Below are positions 11,689 to 22,152 of a stretch of 64,000 nucleotides of DNA, one piece after another (the stretch's first letter is position 1; each line of letters starts with the position of its first letter). Origin of the DNA: Steroidobacter denitrificans (GTDB taxonomy: Bacteria; Pseudomonadota; Gammaproteobacteria; Steroidobacterales; Steroidobacteraceae); NCBI RefSeq assembly GCF_001579945.1, contig NZ_CP011971.1:1762001-1826000 (forward strand), in the 5' to 3' direction. The notes under the pieces were generated by a model. It had not been told where the DNA came from and ran no database searches. It saw nothing but the letters and a program-made list of their open reading frames with translations. Both the position numbers and the translations under genes were made by a program.

Positions 11689-12975
<1,287 letters not shown>

Positions 12976-13288
12976 CGGAAATTCCTCGTGCGTTGGGGTT
13001 AAGAGATCGATGCCCTCGAAGCAGCCTGAAGTCGGTGGGTCCTGGCATGCTCGGGACGGATGAGCCGGCGATATGTATCGGGACTCCCGGCGAGACGGAG
13101 AGGAGTGCAATGCATCGGCCATCGAGCGGACTCAATCTGGCTGTCGAGGTGCATCGCCCGAACCGTCTCGCTAAATGGAAGTGAATTCCGACTGGCAGTG
13201 CCATATCACTGGCCGCTACCTTAACCATTTCTATTTTGATCGTAAAATATATGGTAAATTGCTTATCAATATTTAATAGATATATCTA
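12976..13288. promoter_or_regulatory. Divergent aceA / lysR-type intergenic region with palindromes
   Basis: The half next to the LysR gene is strikingly AT-rich. It holds a perfect 12-bp palindrome TAGATATATCTA (13277-13288) that touches the LysR start codon, and an ATTTT/AAAAT inverted repeat (13233-13248). These are possible binding sites for the LysR protein. No ribosome binding site is visible before the LysR ATG. Confidence 0.5.
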
Positions 13289-14305
13289 ATGGAATTACGT
13301 CACCTGCGCTATTTCATTGCGGTCGCCGACGAACAGCATATGACCCGTGCCGCCGAACGCCTGGGGATCCAGCAACCTCCCCTGAGCATCCAGATACGTG
13401 CACTGGAGCAGGAATTGGGCGTGCAGCTACTGCGCCGCAAGCCGCGCGGGGTGGAATTGACCGAGGCAGGCGGCGTTTTCCTGGCGCGCGCGCGCGCGAT
13501 CCTGGATGAGGTCGACCGCACCATCGCCTCGGTACGCCGCACGGCCCGCGGTGAACAAGGCCGGGTCGTCGTGGGCTTCACCAGCTCCGCCCCCTTTCAT
13601 CCGTTCGTGCCCCGAGTCATTCGCGCCTTCCGGGAAATGTCACCCCGGGTCTCGCTGGAACTGGCGGAAAGCGGCAGCAGCGCCCTGGTACAGGCGCTGC
13701 ATGAGGAGGAGATAGATGCGGCGTTCATTCGCTCGCCGGTGGTCGACATCGTCAATCTCATCGTGGAGCCGCTGCTGGAGGAAAGAATGCTGCTGGCGCT
13801 GCCGGCGGGGCATGCGCTGGCGAATATCACACCTCAGGATGAGGACGCCGGGTCTCTTGGCCGCACCGCTCCCCTGCCCTTGTCCGCGCTCGCAAACGAA
13901 ACCTTCATTCTGTACAAACGTCCCGGCGGTCCGGGGTTGTACGACACCATCATTGCCGCTTGCCGTCATGCGGGATTCAGTCCCCGCGTAGGTCAGGAAG
14001 CGCCGCGCATCATCTCGACCTTGAATCTGGTTGCAGCCGGCCTGGGCGTCTCGGTGGTACCCGAGTCCCTGCAGCGGCTACAGATGGACGGCGTGGTGTA
14101 TCGGCGTTTCGAAGAAACCGTGCATCTCAATGCACCGTTGCTGCTTGCTTGCCGGCGCACCGAGAGCGCCGCGGCGGCGCAACGCTTCATCGAGCTGGTG
14201 CGCAGCACCGCCCGGCATATCGATCCAGCCGGTGAATCCGCGGTAGATCAGTCGCATTTCCGAGAGCCGGCTCCCTCGCCTTGCGGTACGAACCAGTCCG
14301 AATGA
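13289..14305 (+). CDS. LysR-family transcriptional regulator
   Basis: DNA-binding regulator (338 aa). Residues 1-60 are the winged helix-turn-helix (MELRHLRYFIAVADEQHMT, AAERLGIQQPPLSIQIRALEQELG), followed by a linker helix and a substrate-binding domain from about residue 90 to 300 (VVVGFTSSAPFHPFVPRVI). The last about 35 residues are a non-conserved tail. The N-terminus is canonical, so the start is secure even though no ribosome binding site is seen and a palindrome abuts the ATG. Its position, divergent from aceA, suggests control of the glyoxylate shunt and of itself; the inducer is unknown. Confidence 0.93.
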   Translation: MELRHLRYFIAVADEQHMTRAAERLGIQQPPLSIQIRALEQELGVQLLRRKPRGVELTEAGGVFLARARAILDEVDRTIASVRRTARGEQGRVVVGFTSSAPFHPFVPRVIRAFREMSPRVSLELAESGSSALVQALHEEEIDAAFIRSPVVDIVNLIVEPLLEERMLLALPAGHALANITPQDEDAGSLGRTAPLPLSALANETFILYKRPGGPGLYDTIIAACRHAGFSPRVGQEAPRIISTLNLVAAGLGVSVVPESLQRLQMDGVVYRRFEETVHLNAPLLLACRRTESAAAAQRFIELVRSTARHIDPAGESAVDQSHFREPAPSPCGTNQSE

Positions 14306-14324
14306 CGCTCTCCTGGACGGCGCC

Positions 14325-14996
14325 ATGATGCATGCCCCTGCCCTGCTGCTATTCAACAAGCCTTTCCAGGTGCTGACGCAATTCACCAGTTCGGACGGTA
14401 AATCGACCTTGAAAGACTGGATCGACGCGCCGGGGATGCGCCCGGCCGGTCGGCTGGATCATGACAGTGAGGGGTTGGTACTGCTGACCGACTCCGGCCG
14501 GCTGCAGGCCTATCTGGCCGAGCCGCGCTGGAAGGTTCCCAAAACCTACCTGGCGCAGGTCGAGGGCGAGTTGAATGAAGCGGCGCTGCGGCAGTTGAGG
14601 GCCGGCGTGCGCCTGAAGGATGGTCTGACGCTGCCGGCACTGGCCGAGCAGGTGCCGGAGCCGGCATGGCTGTGGCCGCGCGATCCGCCGATCCGGCATC
14701 GCAAGGCGATCGCCACGTCCTGGCTGCGCCTGACGATCAGCGAGGGTCGCAACCGGCAGGTGCGGCGCATGAGCGCCGCGGTGGGCTATCCGACCTTGCG
14801 GCTGATTCGCTGGTCGGTGGGCCAGTGGTCGCTCGATGGGCTGTCGCCCGGTCGATGGCGTCACGTGCCGGAAATACAAGTCATGCGCTTCATGGACGAA
14901 CGATACGAAGCCGCCTGCGGCACTGCGCGAGGCGCGCCTAGGTTCCGGTATCGATCAGGTGCTGTTCGCGCAGGACCACGATCAACACGCCGATGA
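14325..14996 (+). CDS. rluE: 23S rRNA pseudouridine synthase, RluE/RsuA family
   Basis: Converts a uridine in ribosomal RNA to pseudouridine (223 aa). The catalytic-loop motif RPAGRLDHDSEGLVLLTD contains the active Asp, and the later motifs KTYLAQVEG and EGRNRQVRRMSAAVGYPTLRL are those of the RsuA/RluB/E/F group. There is no S4 domain at the N-terminus, which fits RluE rather than RsuA, RluB or RluF. The gene follows the LysR gene by 19 bases. Its last 59 bases overlap the convergent transporter gene. Confidence 0.88.
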   Translation: MMHAPALLLFNKPFQVLTQFTSSDGKSTLKDWIDAPGMRPAGRLDHDSEGLVLLTDSGRLQAYLAEPRWKVPKTYLAQVEGELNEAALRQLRAGVRLKDGLTLPALAEQVPEPAWLWPRDPPIRHRKAIATSWLRLTISEGRNRQVRRMSAAVGYPTLRLIRWSVGQWSLDGLSPGRWRHVPEIQVMRFMDERYEAACGTARGAPRFRYRSGAVRAGPRSTRR

Positions 14997-15846
14997 GCGT
15001 TGCCGTACCGCCCAGCAGCATGCGCACGGTGAGTTGATCGTGCAGCAATGTCACGCCGAAGAACACGCTGCATACCGGTGACAGCAAGGTGGCGGGCGCC
15101 ACGCTGGTCACCGGATAGCGCGACACCAGGTGGTACCAGATGGTGTGGGCAACCAGGCTGGATACGAGGGTGGTGAAGGCCAACGCGGACCATCCCCGGA
15201 TATCCGCGTTTTGTATCGCAGCCCATTGTCCGGATTCCAACATCAGACTCATCAGCATCAGCATCGGCCCGCCGACCACGGCAATCCAGGCCTGCAGTTC
15301 CAGCGGGCGAACACCACGCAGTCGCTTGATGTAGACCAGGCCGAGGGAACCGAAAAAACAGCTCAGCACCACCAACGCCACGCCATCCCAGGCGGCAAAC
15401 ACGTGCGGATCGAAGCTGATGATCGCGACGCCGCCGAACGCCAGAGTGATACCCAGGCGGCGACGCCAGCGAATCGTCTCACCCAGCAGCCACACTCCCA
15501 GCAGGGTCGCGATCGGCACACTCAGTTGCGTGACGATCGCCACCGTAGAAGCATCCTCGACCATGGACAAACCGATGAACAACAACGCGAAGGCCACCGG
15601 ACCGGTCAGCATCGCCGCGGCCAGCAACTGTTTCATCTGTCCGTAATGCAATTTCAGGAACGGCAGAAGGAACAGGGCGAGCAAACCGAAGCGCAGGGCG
15701 GTGAAAAAGATGGGTGGAAACTGGATGACGCCGGTTTTGGCGGCAACCAGGTTGAACCCCCAAATCAGGTTCATGGCGATGAGCAGCGCAAAATCACCGG
15801 TCGAGATCGACGCCCGGTCGATCGCCTGGATAGAACTAGCAGACAT
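14938..15846 (-). CDS. EamA/DMT-family transporter
   Basis: Inner-membrane protein (302 aa) with about ten hydrophobic helices arranged as two repeated EamA domains, the hallmark of drug/metabolite exporters such as RhtA and YdcZ-like carriers. The two repeats begin near residues 20 (LIAMNLIWGFNLVAAKTGV) and 160 (VALVVLSCFFGSLGLVYIKR). The substrate cannot be told; amino-acid export is common in the family and the neighbours are amino-acid synthesis genes. It converges with and overlaps the rluE gene. Confidence 0.85.
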   Translation of the reverse strand: MSASSIQAIDRASISTGDFALLIAMNLIWGFNLVAAKTGVIQFPPIFFTALRFGLLALFLLPFLKLHYGQMKQLLAAAMLTGPVAFALLFIGLSMVEDASTVAIVTQLSVPIATLLGVWLLGETIRWRRRLGITLAFGGVAIISFDPHVFAAWDGVALVVLSCFFGSLGLVYIKRLRGVRPLELQAWIAVVGGPMLMLMSLMLESGQWAAIQNADIRGWSALAFTTLVSSLVAHTIWYHLVSRYPVTSVAPATLLSPVCSVFFGVTLLHDQLTVRMLLGGTATLIGVLIVVLREQHLIDTGT

Positions 15847-16248
15847 GCGAAAATGAAGGCGGACGCAATCTCGACGGATCCCTTCGGCTCGGTTTGCGAC
15901 TTTTGGATTCAGGCCAGTACGCCGGCCAATGATCTCATAAAATCATGATTTCCATCGTGATGAATGCCTGCCGGCGGCGTCCGGCAGAGCTGAAAATCCA
16001 TGGAATTCTTCGCATTCGATCGCAAGCCGTTGCGGCACGCCGCGGGATGCGCATCCGTATGGCGCAGCTTGCCAAGCAGTGTGCTCATATCTTGACAAGT
16101 TACGCACCCATATGTTGGTATCTTAAAGTTTTCTCCGCCGGTATGAGGTCTCCAAGCAACTCTATCGGGATGCGATGGCTACCGTCTTCAAGGCAAAGGT
16201 CACGGCGTGCGGCAGGATGATTTACAGAGCATGCCGGATGGAAGTGAC
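15847..16248. other. Intergenic upstream of the ilvC leader
   Basis: No gene is seen. A perfect -35 box TTGACA occurs at 16092-16097, with only a poor -10 (TGGTAT, 16116-16121) at 18-base spacing. If used, it would give an RNA starting about 120 bases before the ilvC leader peptide. Confidence 0.4.
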
Positions 16249-16332
16249 ATGAGTGCCGCCGACATCATCGTACGAGCAGGCATTGACGCATCGGCTCTGT
16301 CCCCGAAGCCGGTGTGCGGGATCGACGGCTGA
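16249..16332 (+). CDS. Putative ilvC leader peptide (27 aa)
   Basis: A short frame begins MSAADIIVRAGIDASALS and ends at a TGA at 16330. GGAAG lies just upstream. Seven of its 27 residues are Ile, Val or Leu, with an Ile-Ile-Val run at codons 6-8 (ATC ATC GTA). Its last sense codons (CCG GTG TGC GGG) overlap the 5' arm of an antiterminator. This is the layout of a translation-coupled attenuator for a branched-chain amino acid gene. The Ile/Val run is weaker than in classical ilv leaders, so translation is unproven. Confidence 0.55.
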   Translation: MSAADIIVRAGIDASALSPKPVCGIDG

Positions 16333-16377
16333 GCGCCTAGCAGGCAGACGAATTCGCCACATGAACCCCGCACCGGC
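16308..16377 (+). promoter_or_regulatory. Candidate antiterminator of the ilvC attenuator
   Basis: Bases 16308-16320 (GCCGGTGTGCGGG) can pair with 16367-16377 (CCCGCACCGGC) through 11 base pairs with a 2-base bulge. The 3' arm is the 5' half of the ilvC terminator, so the two structures exclude each other. A ribosome stalled at the Ile/Val codons (16264-16272) leaves the 5' arm free; one that reaches the stop codon covers it. Confidence 0.6.
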
Positions 16378-16404
16378 CAGTCCGAGGCGGGGTTCTTTCA
16401 TTTT
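16366..16404 (+). terminator. Attenuator terminator upstream of ilvC
   Basis: CCCCGC (16366-16371) pairs with GCGGGG (16387-16392), with an inner CGG/CCG pair, followed by TTCTTTCATTTT. It stands 25 bases before the ilvC start codon, where it can only act as an attenuator. Confidence 0.7.
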
Positions 16405-16428
16405 CAATACACGCTTTCAGGAGCGCAC

Positions 16429-17421
16429 ATGCAGATCTACTCGCAGAAGGACGTCAAAAAGAAGGCTCTCAAGGGTGCACGTATCGCCATTCTCGGCTAC
16501 GGCAGTCAGGGTCGTGCACATGCGCTGAACCTCAAGGACAGCGGTTTCGATGTCGTCGTCGGCGTACGCAAGAACGGCGATAGCTGGAAGAACGCCAAGA
16601 AGGACGGCCTGCCTGTGGCCGAGCCAGCCGATGCCGTCAAGGGCGCTGCGCTGATCGCGTTCCTGACCCCCGATCTGACTCAGAAAGATGTGTATGCGGA
16701 AGTCATCGACAACATCGCCAAGGGCGCAACGATCCTGTTCGCGCACGGCTTCAATGTCCACTTCAAGCAGATCAAGCCGCGCCAGGATCTGGACGTCGTA
16801 CTGATCGCCCCCAAGGGCCCGGGCGGATTGGTGCGCCGCCAATATCAGCAGGGCCGCGGTGTACCGTGCCTGATGGCGGTGTACCAGAACGCCACCCGCA
16901 AGGCGAAGGACAATGCGCTGGCCTATGCCGACGGCATCGGCGGAACCCGCGGCGGCGTCCTCACGACGACCTTTGCCGAAGAGACCGAAACCGACCTGTT
17001 CGGTGAGCAGGCGGTACTGTGCGGCGGTGCGACCGAACTGGTCGTGAAGGGTTTCGAGACGCTGGTGGAAGCCGGCTATCAGCCCGAGGTCGCCTACTAT
17101 GAATGCCTGCATGAATTGAAGCTGATCGTCGACCTGCTGCATGAAGGCGGCCTGGCCAAGATGCACCAGTTCATCAGCGAAACGGCCAAGTACGGCGACC
17201 TCACCCGCGGCCCGCGCATCGTCAACGCCGCGACCAAACGCGAGATGAAGAAAGTCCTGAAGGAGATACAGGACGGCAAGTTTGCCCGTCAGTGGATCGC
17301 CGAAAACAAGCGTGGCCGCAAGCGGTACAAACAGCTGATGAACAAGGATCTCAAGCATAAGATCGAAAAGGTCGGCGTGAAGCTGCGCCGCCGCATGCCC
17401 TGGCTGCAGGAAACAGCCTGA
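16429..17421 (+). CDS. ilvC: Ketol-acid reductoisomerase (class I)
   Basis: Second common enzyme of valine, leucine and isoleucine synthesis (330 aa): it isomerises and reduces acetolactate or acetohydroxybutyrate. The Rossmann motif [17 protein letters not shown] is at residues 25-41, with the NADPH-selective Arg/Lys/Ser region [10 protein letters not shown] after it. The C-terminal metal and substrate site is present ([30 protein letters not shown]). Length is that of the short class I enzyme. Pro and His at the usual positions (APKGPG, FAHGFN) are intact. AGGAG precedes the ATG. The gene sits behind a leader peptide and terminator and is followed at 54 bases by ilvE. Confidence 0.97.
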
Positions 17422-17475
17422 TCCCCGGGTCCGAATACTTACCGCCGAACGCCGCACGCACAGGAGCACAGCGTC

Positions 17476-18435
17476 ATGCCCATCCAGGCTGCCAAGCATA
17501 TTTGGTACAACGGCAAACTCGTGCCCTGGGAGAAGGCGACCGTTCACGTACTGGCGCACGCCCTGCATTACGGCTCGACCGTTTTCGAGGGCGTGCGCTG
17601 CTATGCGACCGCGCAAGGTCCCGTAATCTTTCGCTTGCGCGACCATACGCGACGGCTGTTCGATTCGGCCCGGATCTATCGCATCGACATTCCCTACACG
17701 CCGGATGAGATCAATGCGGCATGCAAGGAAATCATCGTCGTCAACGGACTCGACAAGGGCGCCTACATGCGGCCGTTCGCCTTTCGCAGTTATGGCGAAA
17801 TCGGCGTGGCGCCCAAGACGCCGCCGCCGATCGATACCGTCGTGGCGGCGTTCGAATGGGGCGCCTACCTGGGGGCGGACGGCCTGGAGAACGGTATCGA
17901 CGTGTGCGTCTCCTCCTGGCAGCGTCTGGCGGCGAACACCATTCCCGCCTTGGGCAAGGCGGCCGGTAATTATCTCTCCAGTCAGTTGATCAGCATGGAA
18001 GCCAAGCGCCTGGGATTCGCCGAGGGCATCGGTCTGGGCATCGACGGCAGCGTGAGCGAAGGTGCCGGCGAGAATCTGTTCGTGGTCCGGGACAATGTGA
18101 TCTATACCCCGGGACTGGCCAATGCGATCTTGCAGGGCATCACCCGCGACACGGTGATCACCCTGGCGCGTATCCATGGCTTCGAGGTACGTGAGCAAGC
18201 GCTGCCGCGTGAATTTCTGTATCTTGCCGATGAAATCTTCCTGACGGGATCCGCCGCCGAGATCACACCGGTGCGTTCGGTCGACCGGATCGAAGTCGGC
18301 AGCGGCAAGCGCGGCCCGGTCACGGAAGCACTGCAGTCCGCCTTCTTCGGCCTGTTCGACGGCAAAACCGAGGACAAGTGGGGTTGGCTGGAGCGCTGCG
18401 ACGATATCGGCGCCAAAACCGCGGCCAACGCCTGA
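17476..18435 (+). CDS. ilvE: Branched-chain amino acid aminotransferase
   Basis: Fold-type IV PLP enzyme (319 aa) for the last step of valine, leucine and isoleucine synthesis. Motifs include HALHYGSTVFEGVR near the start, the PLP-site region with KAAGNYLSSQLISMEAKRLG, GSVSEGAGENLFVV, and the C-terminal LTGSAAEITPVRSVD. CAGGAGCACAGCGTC precedes the ATG as ribosome binding site. It follows ilvC and probably shares its attenuated transcript; the leuCDB genes follow after 324 bases. Confidence 0.96.
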   Translation: MPIQAAKHIWYNGKLVPWEKATVHVLAHALHYGSTVFEGVRCYATAQGPVIFRLRDHTRRLFDSARIYRIDIPYTPDEINAACKEIIVVNGLDKGAYMRPFAFRSYGEIGVAPKTPPPIDTVVAAFEWGAYLGADGLENGIDVCVSSWQRLAANTIPALGKAAGNYLSSQLISMEAKRLGFAEGIGLGIDGSVSEGAGENLFVVRDNVIYTPGLANAILQGITRDTVITLARIHGFEVREQALPREFLYLADEIFLTGSAAEITPVRSVDRIEVGSGKRGPVTEALQSAFFGLFDGKTEDKWGWLERCDDIGAKTAANA

Positions 18436-18759
18436 TCAGGCCAACGAGAGCGATACCGCTCCTTTCGGGGCGGTCCTCCGGAATCATTTCAGGGCAATAC
18501 GCCAAGCGTATCCACCAGGGCCGCCGCCCAGGGCATCGCTGGAAGTCAGGACATCCCCCAGACATATCACCCAGACATATCACCCAGAGATAACAACCAG
18601 AGACATCGCCAGAAACGATGGCTGCCTGAACAATGGTCAATCCGCCAGCTCAAGAGCTTGGCATGCTGGTATCCGGCGCAGTCACCGAGGTGCCGCCGGA
18701 GGCAGCCCGAGCCGGATACGCCGTCATATGTGCCGGCGCGCAGCTCAGCGAGGAAAGTC
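18436..18759. other. ilvE-leuC intergenic region with repeats and inverted repeats
   Basis: No gene is supported. It holds an 8-bp hairpin at about 18454-18473 (ACCGCTCC/GGGGCGGT) without a T-tract, three tandem 13-base repeats (18557-18595), and a perfect 9-bp inverted repeat GTATCCGGC/GCCGGATAC (18669-18677 with 18711-18719) in the probable leuC leader. The elements may belong to leuCDB control. Confidence 0.5.
18557..18595. repeat. Tandem 13-bp repeat upstream of leuC (3 copies)
   Basis: CCCAGACATATCA occurs at 18557 and again at 18570 without change; a third copy at 18583 has two mismatches, and a decayed fourth follows. The 13-base period is not a helical repeat, so slippage is as likely an origin as protein binding. 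Confidence 0.75.
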
Positions 18760-20211
18760 ATGAATACACGCACCGATCCCCGACGTAGCGAACCGCTGAC
18801 CCTGTTCGAAAAGGTCTGGAAGCAGCACGAGGTGGTGCCGCAGACCGCGGATACACCGGCTATCCTGTATATCGACCTGCATCTGATCCATGAAGTGACC
18901 TCCCCGCAGGCCTTCTCGCTGCTGCGCTCGCTGGATCTGAAACTGCGGCGTACCGATCGCACCTTGGCAACCATGGATCATTCCACCCCCACCGATCCGG
19001 ACGAGATATCCGGCCGGGTGCCGATCAAGGTCGAATCGGCCGCCCGCCAGCTGAAGCAGCTGGAAGTGAACTGTCGCGAATTCGGCGTCAACCTGCGCGG
19101 TCTGGGCAGCGATCAGCGCGGCATCGTGCACGTGATCGGCCCGGAACTGGGCGCGACGCAGCCCGGCAAGACGATCGTCTGCGGCGACAGTCATACTGCG
19201 ACTCATGGCGCATTCGGCGCACTGGCCTTCGGTATCGGCACCACCGAGGTCGGCCACGTCCTGGCGACGCAATGCCTGCTGCAACGCCGCCCCAAAACCA
19301 TGGCGATCGAGGTAAGCGGCCGGCTGGGACCCGGTGTCACCGCCAAGGACCTGATCCTGGCGATCATCGGTCGGATCGGCGTATCCGGCGGCACCGGACA
19401 TGTCATCGAATATCGTGGCACGGCGATCGAGGCGCTATCCATGGAAGAGCGCATGACGGTCTGCAACATGTCGATCGAGGCCGGCGCGCGCGCCGGTATG
19501 ATCGCGCCCGATGACACTACCTTTGCCTATCTGAAGGGCCGGCAATACGCCCCCACGGGCGCCCACTGGGATGCCGCGGTGGAACGCTGGCGGGCGCTGC
19601 GCACCGATCCGGGCGCCCTCTTTGACGAGATCGTGCATATCGATGCGGACTCGATCGCTCCCATGATCACCTATGGAACCCATCCGGGCATGGTCGTACC
19701 GATCGGCGCCGCGGTTCCGCAGCGGCCCGGCGATGCGGCACACGCAAAGTCGCTGGCCTACATGGGACTGCAGGAGGGCGAGGAAATCATCGGCAAGGCG
19801 ATACAGGTGGTTTTCCTCGGCAGCTGCACGAACGGTCGCCTCTCCGACCTGAAACAGGCGGCGCAGGTATTGAAGGGACGCAAGATTGCGCCCGGGGTGC
19901 GCATGCTGGTCGTACCAGGTTCGCAACAGGTGAAGCGCGAGGCCGAAGCGATCGGACTGGACAGGATCTTCATCGAAGCCGGCGCCGAATGGCGCGAGCC
20001 CGGTTGCTCGATGTGCCTGGGGATGAATGGCGATCTGGTCGCGAAAGGCGACTATGCGGTCAGTACCAGCAACCGCAACTTCGAAGGACGCCAGGGGCCG
20101 GGCGCACGCACATTGCTCGCCAGTCCGGCGACGGCGGCGGTGGCGGCGCTGACCGGACGTATCACCGATCCGCGTGAATTTCTTGCCGGCGCCGCGCCGG
20201 CCGCTCATTGA
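18760..20211 (+). CDS. leuC: 3-isopropylmalate dehydratase, large subunit
   Basis: Large subunit (483 aa) of the aconitase-like enzyme that isomerises 2- to 3-isopropylmalate in leucine synthesis. It carries the 4Fe-4S cysteines: one in [11 protein letters not shown] and two in [11 protein letters not shown]. The substrate motifs DHSTPT and [21 protein letters not shown] are clear. The ATG at 18760 has AGGAAAG six bases upstream; the frame is open 34 codons earlier without similarity. leuD follows after 12 bases. Confidence 0.97.
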
Positions 20212-20223
20212 AGGAGCCGCGAC

Positions 20224-20814
20224 ATGGAACCTCTGCGCACGATCGAATCGCGTACCGTCGTCTTGGCCACGACCAATATCGACACCGACCAGATCATCCC
20301 TGCGCGCTTTCTCACAACGACGACCAAGGAAGGCTTGGGAAAGCAATTATTCGCAGACTGGCGCTACGATGCTGCCGGTATGCCGAAGCCGGATTTCATT
20401 CTGAACCAACCTGCCGCCGCGGGCTGCGAGATCCTGGTGGCAGGACGTAATTTCGGCTGCGGCTCGTCGCGCGAGCATGCGCCCTGGGCGCTGCACGACT
20501 ACGGCTTTCGTGCAGTGATCAGCACCCAGATCGCAGACATCTTTCGCAACAATGCGCTCAAGAACGGCGTCGTACCGGTGGTGGTGGACAAAGACACTCA
20601 CCTCTGGCTGTTGAACAATCCCGGGACGCTGGTGCGCATCGATGTGGAAAGCAGCAGCCTGACTCTGCCCACGGGTGCGCGGACCGGCTTCCCGCTGGAA
20701 CCCTTCGCACGCTACTGCCTGCTGAACGGTATCGATGAACTCGGCTACATCCTCAAGCAGGCCGATACCATCAGCCGATTCGAACAGAGTCACGACCAAA
20801 TCTATCCAGCATGA
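20224..20814 (+). CDS. leuD: 3-isopropylmalate dehydratase, small subunit
   Basis: Swivel-domain subunit (196 aa) that pairs with LeuC. Family motifs are [16 protein letters not shown] near the start and [17 protein letters not shown] in the middle. The stop overlaps the leuB start by four bases (ATGA), so leuD and leuB are translationally coupled. Confidence 0.97.
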
Positions 20815-21884
20815 GCAACTCTCACAAGATCCAGGCCACCATCGTGGTACTTCCCGGCGACGGTGTCGGTCCGGAAGTCACCCACGAGGCAGTACGCGTA
20901 CTGGAAGCGGTAGCGGCACGCCGCGGACACAGCTTCGATTTCGAATCGCATCCGATCGGTGGCGCAGCCATCGACGCCTGCGGCAGCGCCTTGCCGCCCG
21001 GCACGACCGCCGCCTGCCAGCGAGCACACGCGGTGCTGCTAGGCGCGGTGGGCGGCCCGAAATGGTCGGATCCAGCTGCGCCGGTGCGTCCCGAGCAGGG
21101 TTTGCTGGCACTGCGCAAGGCGCTGAACCTGTTTGCCAATCTGCGCCCGGTGACGCTGCACCCCGCCCTCCTCGATGTTTCTCCTCTCAAGGCGGACATC
21201 CTCCAGGGCACCGATATCATGGTGGTACGCGAGTTGACGGGCGGCATCTACTTTGGTGAAAAGCAGCGTACGGCAACCTTCGCGAGCGATCTGTGTACCT
21301 ACAGCGTGGAAGAGATCGAACGTGTCACACGTGTGGCCGGAACGCTGGCGCGCTCACGCCGCCGGTCCATCGTCTCGGTCGACAAGGCCAACGTGCTGGA
21401 GACCTCGCGTTTGTGGCGCAGTACCGTGGAATCCTTGCTGAAGACGGAGTTTCCCGATGTAAAGTTCGAACACATGCTCGTCGATGCTGCGGCCATGCAT
21501 TTGATCCGTCGGCCGTCGAGCTTCGATGTGATCCTGACCGAAAACATGTTCGGCGATATCCTGACCGACGAAGCCTCGATGCTGGCGGGCTCGCTGGGCC
21601 TGCTACCATCGGCATCGTTGGGTTCCGGTACACAGGGTCTGTATGAGCCCATCCATGGTTCGGCACCCGATATCGCCGGCCAGGGCGTCGCCAATCCCTA
21701 CGGCACGATTCTGAGCGCTGCCATGCTGTTGCGCCATTCCCTCGGCCTCCACGAGGAAGCGGCACTGGTTGAAAAAGCGGTAGCCGAGGCGATCGTAGCC
21801 GGCGTGCGGACTGCCGATATCGGGGGCTCCGGCAAGGCGGCCACGACGGCTCAGGCAGGCAGCGCCGTCGTAGATCGAATCTAG
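20811..21884 (+). CDS. leuB: 3-isopropylmalate dehydrogenase
   Basis: NAD-dependent oxidative decarboxylation of 3-isopropylmalate, third step of leucine synthesis (357 aa). Family motifs: [20 protein letters not shown] at the start, the substrate segment [28 protein letters not shown], and the NAD/metal region [20 protein letters not shown] with [15 protein letters not shown]. Last gene of leuCDB; a strong terminator lies 269 bases on. The first enzyme, leuA, is not in the window. Confidence 0.97.
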
Positions 21885-22152
21885 AATCTCTGACTAAGCT
21901 ATTGATTTCTAGTTAAATCTAAGCTTAAAAGTCTGGAACCGAAGATTCTTGCCCAAATTATCGGCCAGACCGGTTATCATCGTCCCTGCGACAGGTGCTG
22001 ATTCTCCTGCCGCAGCCTTCGGGCAAATCTCCATATCTCGGCCAACGGTCGAGGTGTCTTTGGTGGAACAGGGCTCGTGTCGGGTTAGTCCCCAAGGTTG
22101 ACGCCGGTTCAACCGGCGTCGGCCACGACGGTAGTTCTTAGTTGCCACACCC
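21885..22152. other. Structured intergenic region after leuB
   Basis: No convincing gene. It contains a 9-bp hairpin GACGCCGGT/ACCGGCGTC. On the minus strand there is a 10-bp stem CTGCGGCAGG/CCTGTCGCAG enclosed by a TTGCCC/GGGCAA pair; that stem is perfect (with one G-U) only when read as minus-strand RNA. A 79-residue GTG-started minus-strand frame crosses it but has no ribosome binding site. Confidence 0.35.

Follow-up and report, generated by a model that had tools for sequence, protein, structure and literature searches.

The ilvC locus and its leader region

The window, meaning here the whole stretch of 64,000 nucleotides analysed, carries ilvC (ketol-acid reductoisomerase; NCBIfam TIGR00465 and NF004017) at 16429-17421 of the forward strand. 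On the same strand, ilvC is followed by ilvE (branched-chain aminotransferase; NCBIfam TIGR01122) at 17476-18435, leuC (NCBIfam TIGR00170) at 18760-20211, leuD at 20224-20814 and leuB at 20811-21884, with leuD and leuB named from their translations alone. A gap of 324 bases separates ilvE from leuC, and leuC, leuD and leuB are possibly co-regulated with ilvC-ilvE. Imperfect tandem repeats (CAGACATATCACC) were seen by eye in this gap at 18557-18600.

An element on the forward strand lies in front of ilvC. Its leader frame (16249-16332), read from the sequence, consists of an ATG, 27 sense codons (MSAADIIVRAGIDASALSPKPVCGIDG) and a TGA, with the ribosome site GGAAG upstream of the ATG at 16240-16244, as the earlier note had described. 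Such a putative leader frame with a ribosome site, placed upstream of a biosynthetic operon, is what is expected of a leader-peptide attenuator. Another frame, of 25 codons (MATVFKAKVTACGRMIYRACRMEVT; 16175-16252), overlaps the start of the leader (ATGA, 16249-16252) and was counted against the attenuator reading.

The terminator (16363-16404) was found just before ilvC, in agreement with the same note. Its stem is formed by 16363-16371 with 16387-16395 and contains a further inner 3-bp stem, the T-rich tail TTTCATTTT occupies 16396-16404, and 24 bases separate its end from the ilvC ATG at 16429. The folding energy of 16361-16404 was -23.9 kcal/mol; the U-tract is interrupted (TTTCATTTT), which was also counted against the attenuator reading. 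When a simple sigma-70/terminator scanner was run over 15900-16700, neither the promoter described below nor this terminator was listed, the terminator being missed because the scanner's loop limit is 8 and the actual loop is longer.

The proposed 11-bp antiterminator sharing the 5' arm of the terminator was likewise recovered. Segment 2 (16308-16320), its 5' half, pairs with segment 3 (16367-16377), which is common to the antiterminator and the terminator 5' arm, through 11 bp with a 2-base bulge. When the upstream stretch was shuffled 500 times with dinucleotides preserved, 3 shuffles gave a duplex as good as the best one here (-26.3 kcal/mol). Beyond what the earlier note contained, folding predicted a 1:2 hairpin (16288-16296 with 16307-16315) that takes up the antiterminator 5' half and completes the classical 1:2, 2:3 and 3:4 set; the antiterminator and the 1:2 hairpin would thus be mutually exclusive in the modelled folds. 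Across 68 regions, the window included, the 41 bases at the 1:2 hairpin folded with a median raw energy of -14.0 kcal/mol.

Taken alone, the window sequence holds structure that exceeds chance only modestly, the fold of 16249-16428 having a z of -2.1 against shuffles, with 5 of 200 as low. These figures, together with the 3 of 500 shuffles for the duplex, would suit a chance meeting of an unrelated terminator, a fortuitous frame and a complementary stretch. However, the same element recurs with the same position, register and promoter in most family regions examined, and chance is extremely improbable. Thus, the element is judged real because it is conserved across the family, not from single-sequence statistics.

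A probable promoter, also additional to the earlier note, was recognised from the sequence and from relatives at 16092-16121 of the forward strand, with TTGACA at 16092-16097, an 18-base spacer and TGGTAT at 16116-16121. The window spacer (AGTTACGCACCCATATGT) is nearly identical to that of the relatives L009-L011 (AGTTACGCAGCC[AG]TATGG). Counting the window, 76 of the 77 regions that carry a leader have a perfect TTGACA at a distance of 17-18 bases from a hexamer resembling the -10. This arrangement would place the transcription start of the window copy near 16128. The distance of 127 bases from the -10 to the leader ATG was counted against the attenuator reading. The first in-frame ATG lies 109 bases from the window -10, the farthest among the regions examined (next, 82).

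In 14 of the 62 other promoter-bearing regions with a downstream in-frame ATG, this codon comes 5-10 bases after the -10 (L018, L029, L113, L121, L122, L128, L130, L155, L174, L179, L180, L181, L184, and L188). Judging from this spacing, the RNA for those 14 leaders probably begins at the ATG or close to it, with no 5' leader. The window copy, with its 5' stretch and ribosome site, is not of this near-leaderless type. In seven further family members (L037, L040, L048, L124, L131, L138, and L148), the ilvC promoter was seen by eye to be followed by a terminator within about 45 bases, and neither a leader peptide nor an antiterminator was seen by eye between the two.

Conservation across Steroidobacteraceae and the order

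A search of 154 family genomes located ilvC in 142. The comparison drew on 110 ilvC upstream regions, each from a different genome of the family (30 from one search and 80 from later retrievals), of which two came from genomes below the completeness limit and a few were short at contig ends. A CCCCGC...GCGGGG terminator with a T-rich tail was present in 101 of the 110, and the antiterminator core (at least 7 of 8 bases, 20-100 bases upstream) in 77 of these 101; 24 regions had the terminator and lacked the core, and 9 were without such a terminator. A predicted intrinsic terminator before the first gene, as expected of an attenuator, thus appears to be conserved. With the Leu/Val/Ile codons in the expected frame described below, these counts uphold the proposal of a leader-peptide attenuator before ilvC. 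The same note had considered attenuation of ilvC-ilvE by so sparse a leader unusual; on the comparative evidence, predicted attenuation of ilvC is in itself common in Steroidobacteraceae.

A strict core pattern was found in 67 of 154 family genomes and its reversed control in 0 of 154. The window fails the strict pattern because its segment 2 carries a 2-base insertion within the conserved GGTGCGGG core.

For the alignment and covariance model, 45 of the 77 leader-positive regions were used: redundancy filtering left 51, and L005, L030, L114, L116, L159, and L181 were dropped by hand, the antiterminator having been called in another register or place. The antiterminator was paired in 86.5% of cells versus 34-49% for slid versions, and the terminator in 95.8% versus 36-58%, percentages that lean upward since the 45 rows were picked for having a leader and an antiterminator. 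The antiterminator covariation score was 0.046, versus 0.003-0.024 for slid versions. Four antiterminator pairs had changed on both sides, a number that 0 of 500 shuffles reached but the +2 slide, one of six, did. The terminator was mostly invariant, and 41 of 500 shuffles equalled its 3 double-change pairs. The covariation support for the two stems is therefore thin.

The covariance model matched the window at 61.7 bits (E 1.5e-10 in its own genome); the 45 rows from which the model was built include the window itself. In that genome the element is the sole convincing match, L192 being its reverse strand. Five weaker matches there (L193-L197; E 0.02-0.4) were rejected, since by eye they resemble terminators at other genes and no suitable leader accompanies them. 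Across the order, 207 of 296 genomes had a match at E <= 0.01, a tally that includes reverse-strand and weak matches and, with few of the 150 listed matches inspected, may include ordinary terminators. From the core, the position and the leader register, the window element appears to be a homologous copy of the family ilvC attenuator, and its shared descent is suggested by the model match, the in-register leader and the shared promoter spacer.

In a distant-mode nucleotide search of plasmids with 14938-17421, the best 20 of 40 matches aligned only from query position 1547 or later, that is, with ilvC. Literature on ilvC attenuation, leader peptides, ilvCGM and Steroidobacter yielded no paper on the element among the matches listed; "ilv" is absent from PMC2965389 and "ilvC" from PMC8632094.

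Leucine, valine and isoleucine codons of the leader

For the frame test, regions were anchored on the RNA core alone, and the 11 codons before the core were counted with leader content left out of the anchoring. In the 79 of 110 regions with a usable core (the other 31 include L002-L005 and L007), the leader frame held on average 6.5 Leu/Ile/Val per 11 codons, versus 1.6 and 0.7 in the other two frames. At least 5 of 11 were found in the leader frame of 62 of the 79, versus 1 and 3 in the other frames; L010, whose anchor fell out of register, had 3 in its leader frame and 6 in another. Typical leaders of relatives read MIAAIIVVERVVVSGLLRRAGCGTGV (L008) and ...LPVLLIGLLLLTSSRCGVLAIA (L025). This coding evidence is stronger than the covariation evidence for the stems.

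The frame test also bears on the idea of a metabolite riboswitch or T-box in place of a leader-peptide attenuator. The strong conservation of the terminator and antiterminator sequence would fit such an RNA, but Leu/Val/Ile enrichment in one frame only among relatives does not, nor does the finding of 0 Rfam matches up to E = 1, at a lax threshold, within 12000-22000. By eye, no conserved aptamer was seen upstream of the leader in the regions viewed. A riboswitch or T-box is thus highly unlikely.

In most relatives, the Leu/Val/Ile run lies in a control zone of codons -15 to -5, numbered relative to the Cys-Gly of the leader tail, which corresponds to 16270-16302 of the window. Over its last 22 codons the window leader aligns in register with the leaders of L008, L010, and L013, and the V-C-G tail is kept. 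Its control zone, however, holds 3 Leu/Ile/Val in 11 codons (a single Ile, a single Leu and, at its edge, a Val). Neighbouring proteins contain 23% Leu/Ile/Val in 4195 residues, and 3 of 11 is therefore at background level (P = 0.48). By comparison, 70 relatives average 6.9 of 11 in a set pre-filtered for Leu/Ile/Val leaders, 12 of 89 regions having been set aside for low content (L003, L012, L026, L112, L125, L140, L142, L156, L160, L161, L163, and L187). The 6.5 of the frame test is the fairer figure, because this removal raised the 6.9. A run of end-product codons at the control position, which defines such attenuators, is absent from the window copy, and this was counted against the attenuator reading.

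The earlier note had pointed to an Ile-Ile-Val run, and the run is present at 16264-16272. It comprises codons -17 to -15, reaching the control zone only at its upstream edge; segment 1 lies 15 bases away and segment 2 lies 35 bases away. Its role as the control site did not hold up: this only Leu/Ile/Val run of the window leader ends at -15, whereas 59 of 70 relatives have a run of at least 3 whose end falls at -12 or further downstream, most commonly at -5. The edge of a ribosome lies about 12 bases past the A-site codon. On this geometry, a ribosome stalled on Ile-Ile-Val would leave segment 1 free, so that the 1:2 hairpin would fold first and the terminator after it, the opposite of the proposed response; the run thus appears to lie too far upstream. 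With the ribosome stalled at Ile 16282 or Leu 16297, segment 2 would be exposed as the mechanism requires.

Within the genus, ilvC was found in 12 of 14 genomes, window included, and the 11 others were compared. L002, L003, L005, and L006 have the terminator and no matching antiterminator core (best duplexes of -14.9, -16.3, -22.4, and -19.3 kcal/mol, respectively), and L007 has neither terminator nor core. L004 carries terminator and core together with a leader poor in Leu/Ile/Val (4 of 11), its duplex reaching -25.5 kcal/mol. L008-L011 and L013 likewise carry the two parts, with Val-rich leaders (5-7 of 11) and duplexes of -25.9 to -28.5 kcal/mol. Loss of a stem in close relatives, named in the earlier note as telling against its proposal, is thus seen in the first five, and the other six keep both parts. 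In the ilvC tree, L008-L011 and L013 were grouped with full support, and the placements of the window and the other Steroidobacter were not separated. From these sequences we infer that the sparse window leader reflects a loss inside Steroidobacter, and likewise the direction and order of the losses.

Taken together, the window element is most probably the Steroidobacter copy of a family-wide ribosome-mediated attenuator, with its switch parts intact and its sensing of branched-chain amino acids weak or lost, controlling ilvC and probably the genes behind it. On the comparative sequence evidence, we give this reading a probability of about 0.78. Transcription would start near 16128, and a ribosome would read the 27-codon leader behind RNA polymerase. 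Stalling in the control zone (16270-16302) would cover segment 1, so that segments 2 and 3 pair and ilvC is transcribed. A ribosome reaching the stop codon would instead cover segment 2, so that segments 3 and 4 pair and transcription terminates near 16400. Most relatives have a run of Leu/Val/Ile codons through which this zone would act. In the window the run would have eroded to one Ile, one Leu and the edge Val, so that little or no sensing is to be expected. The element is ordinary in design, and what is unusual is the worn sensor in the Steroidobacter lineage.

Two sub-cases differ in any present response. In the first, Ile (16282-16284) and Leu (16297-16299) would serve as a sparse sensor giving a modest response to branched-chain amino acids. 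Segments 1-4, the ribosome site, the frame register and the V-C-G tail are all kept, the window duplex (-26.3 kcal/mol) resembles those of the full-leader relatives (-25.9 to -28.5) and is at least as good as those of L002-L006 with poor or lost leaders (-14.9 to -25.5), and Escherichia coli trpL works with two Trp codons. Nevertheless, the 3 of 11 equals background composition, Leu and Ile are common amino acids whose single codons are rarely limiting, and parts of the system are gone from several close relatives. A working sparse sensor is therefore a tentative proposition, though slightly the likelier of the two.

In the second sub-case, the element would be a decaying remnant whose leader senses nothing and whose terminator sets a fixed basal level. 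The four congeners with a terminator and no matching core, and L007 with no terminator, are consistent with decay of this kind, but the window retains the antiterminator of 11 bp, the 1:2 hairpin that competes with it and a leader behind a ribosome site, some of which random decay would be expected to break. Decay to a remnant is thus doubtful.

Related cores and comparison with known attenuators

Cores of the same kind were also found before other genes. From the model matches listed in the order, 18 further ones were picked, favouring sites away from known ilvC places; 7 proved to be at ilvC and 11 elsewhere. In other genera of the order, the core precedes leuA (L198, L200, L202, and L213), pheA with Phe codons in the leader (L199 and L201), a threonine dehydratase gene (L206-L208) and, with a poor leader, a gene for a bifunctional aspartate kinase/diaminopimelate decarboxylase (L211). 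No gene was identified behind the match at L205. Seven of the gene names came from a profile scan, and L200, L207, and L208 were named by likeness of gene starts.

In the pheA leaders, Phe codons (MHGSNCTGFFFRTALGYGPTG and MCMNRLFGLFFTTTQRCGPTA) take the place that Leu has in others. In one genome the stop-codon context is alike before leuA (GCGGGACGACGGGCTGAC) and pheA (ACGGGCCGACGGGCTGAC), and the ilvC copy of that genome lacks it. Because of this shared context, a common origin of the leuA and pheA cores is suggested, although their likeness may reflect convergence on a common GC-rich terminator. More broadly, one ancestral core may have been copied before ilvC, leuA, pheA and the threonine dehydratase gene with the codon run swapped (Leu/Val/Ile or Phe), the Steroidobacter ilvC copy having dropped its sensor, kept its switch and come to report general leader translation rather than branched-chain amino acid supply. 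We regard this scenario as rather unlikely.

In the genome of the window, no such attenuator was seen by eye in the 400 bases before a pheA match (L219). The same genome has a Leu-rich frame (MRTIQQLPTLPLRGSELLRMRLHLRR) before position 1501 of L221, ahead of a gene that resembles leuA (31% match). The ATG of this frame follows a -10-like TAGATT at a distance of 6 bases. In alphaproteobacterial contigs of Sphingosinicella and Sphingomonas (L069 and L075), a Leu/Val/Ile-rich frame and a GC-rich terminator precede ilvC.

The regions collected here form a large alignable set of leader-peptide attenuators from a little-studied order. The set holds a graded series from full sensor through sparse sensor to terminator alone, as well as like cores with another amino acid specificity. 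With such a set, changes in attenuator specificity and the course of attenuator decay become open to testing.

In E. coli, ilvGMEDA, ilvBN and leuABCD are controlled by leader-peptide attenuators with branched-chain amino acid codons, and ilvC is controlled by IlvY. The element described here resembles these three attenuators in its leader frame for branched-chain amino acids, its 1:2, 2:3 and 3:4 pairings and its terminator before the first gene. It differs from them in preceding ilvC, with ilvE and leuCDB behind, and the window leader differs further in having no codon run. Amino acid attenuators of proteobacteria were reportedly predicted by comparative genomics by Vitreschak and colleagues in 2004, possibly including ilvC-led operons of Xanthomonadales, and the Steroidobacteraceae ilvC attenuator family may already have been predicted in that survey.

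The ilvBNC operon of Corynebacterium glutamicum belongs to a different phylum and has a different gene order from Steroidobacter ilvC. Excerpts of PMC11857589 describe its attenuator as translation dependent, with a leader containing branched-chain amino acid codons (MTIIRLVVVTARRLP) and three hairpins including a terminator; the likeness to the present element was judged from that description. According to the same excerpts, transcription of ilvBNC starts one base from the leader start codon (PMC11857589), much as is proposed here for the 14 of 62 relatives and unlike the window. In Sinorhizobium meliloti, trpLE(G) is described in excerpts of PMC7298713 as an attenuator that depends on the ribosome and has an RNA starting directly at the leader ATG, an arrangement that some of the relatives here would share. 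As far as those excerpts go, trpLE(G) differs in sensing tryptophan, and the window copy differs from it in having a 5' stretch and a ribosome site ahead of its leader.
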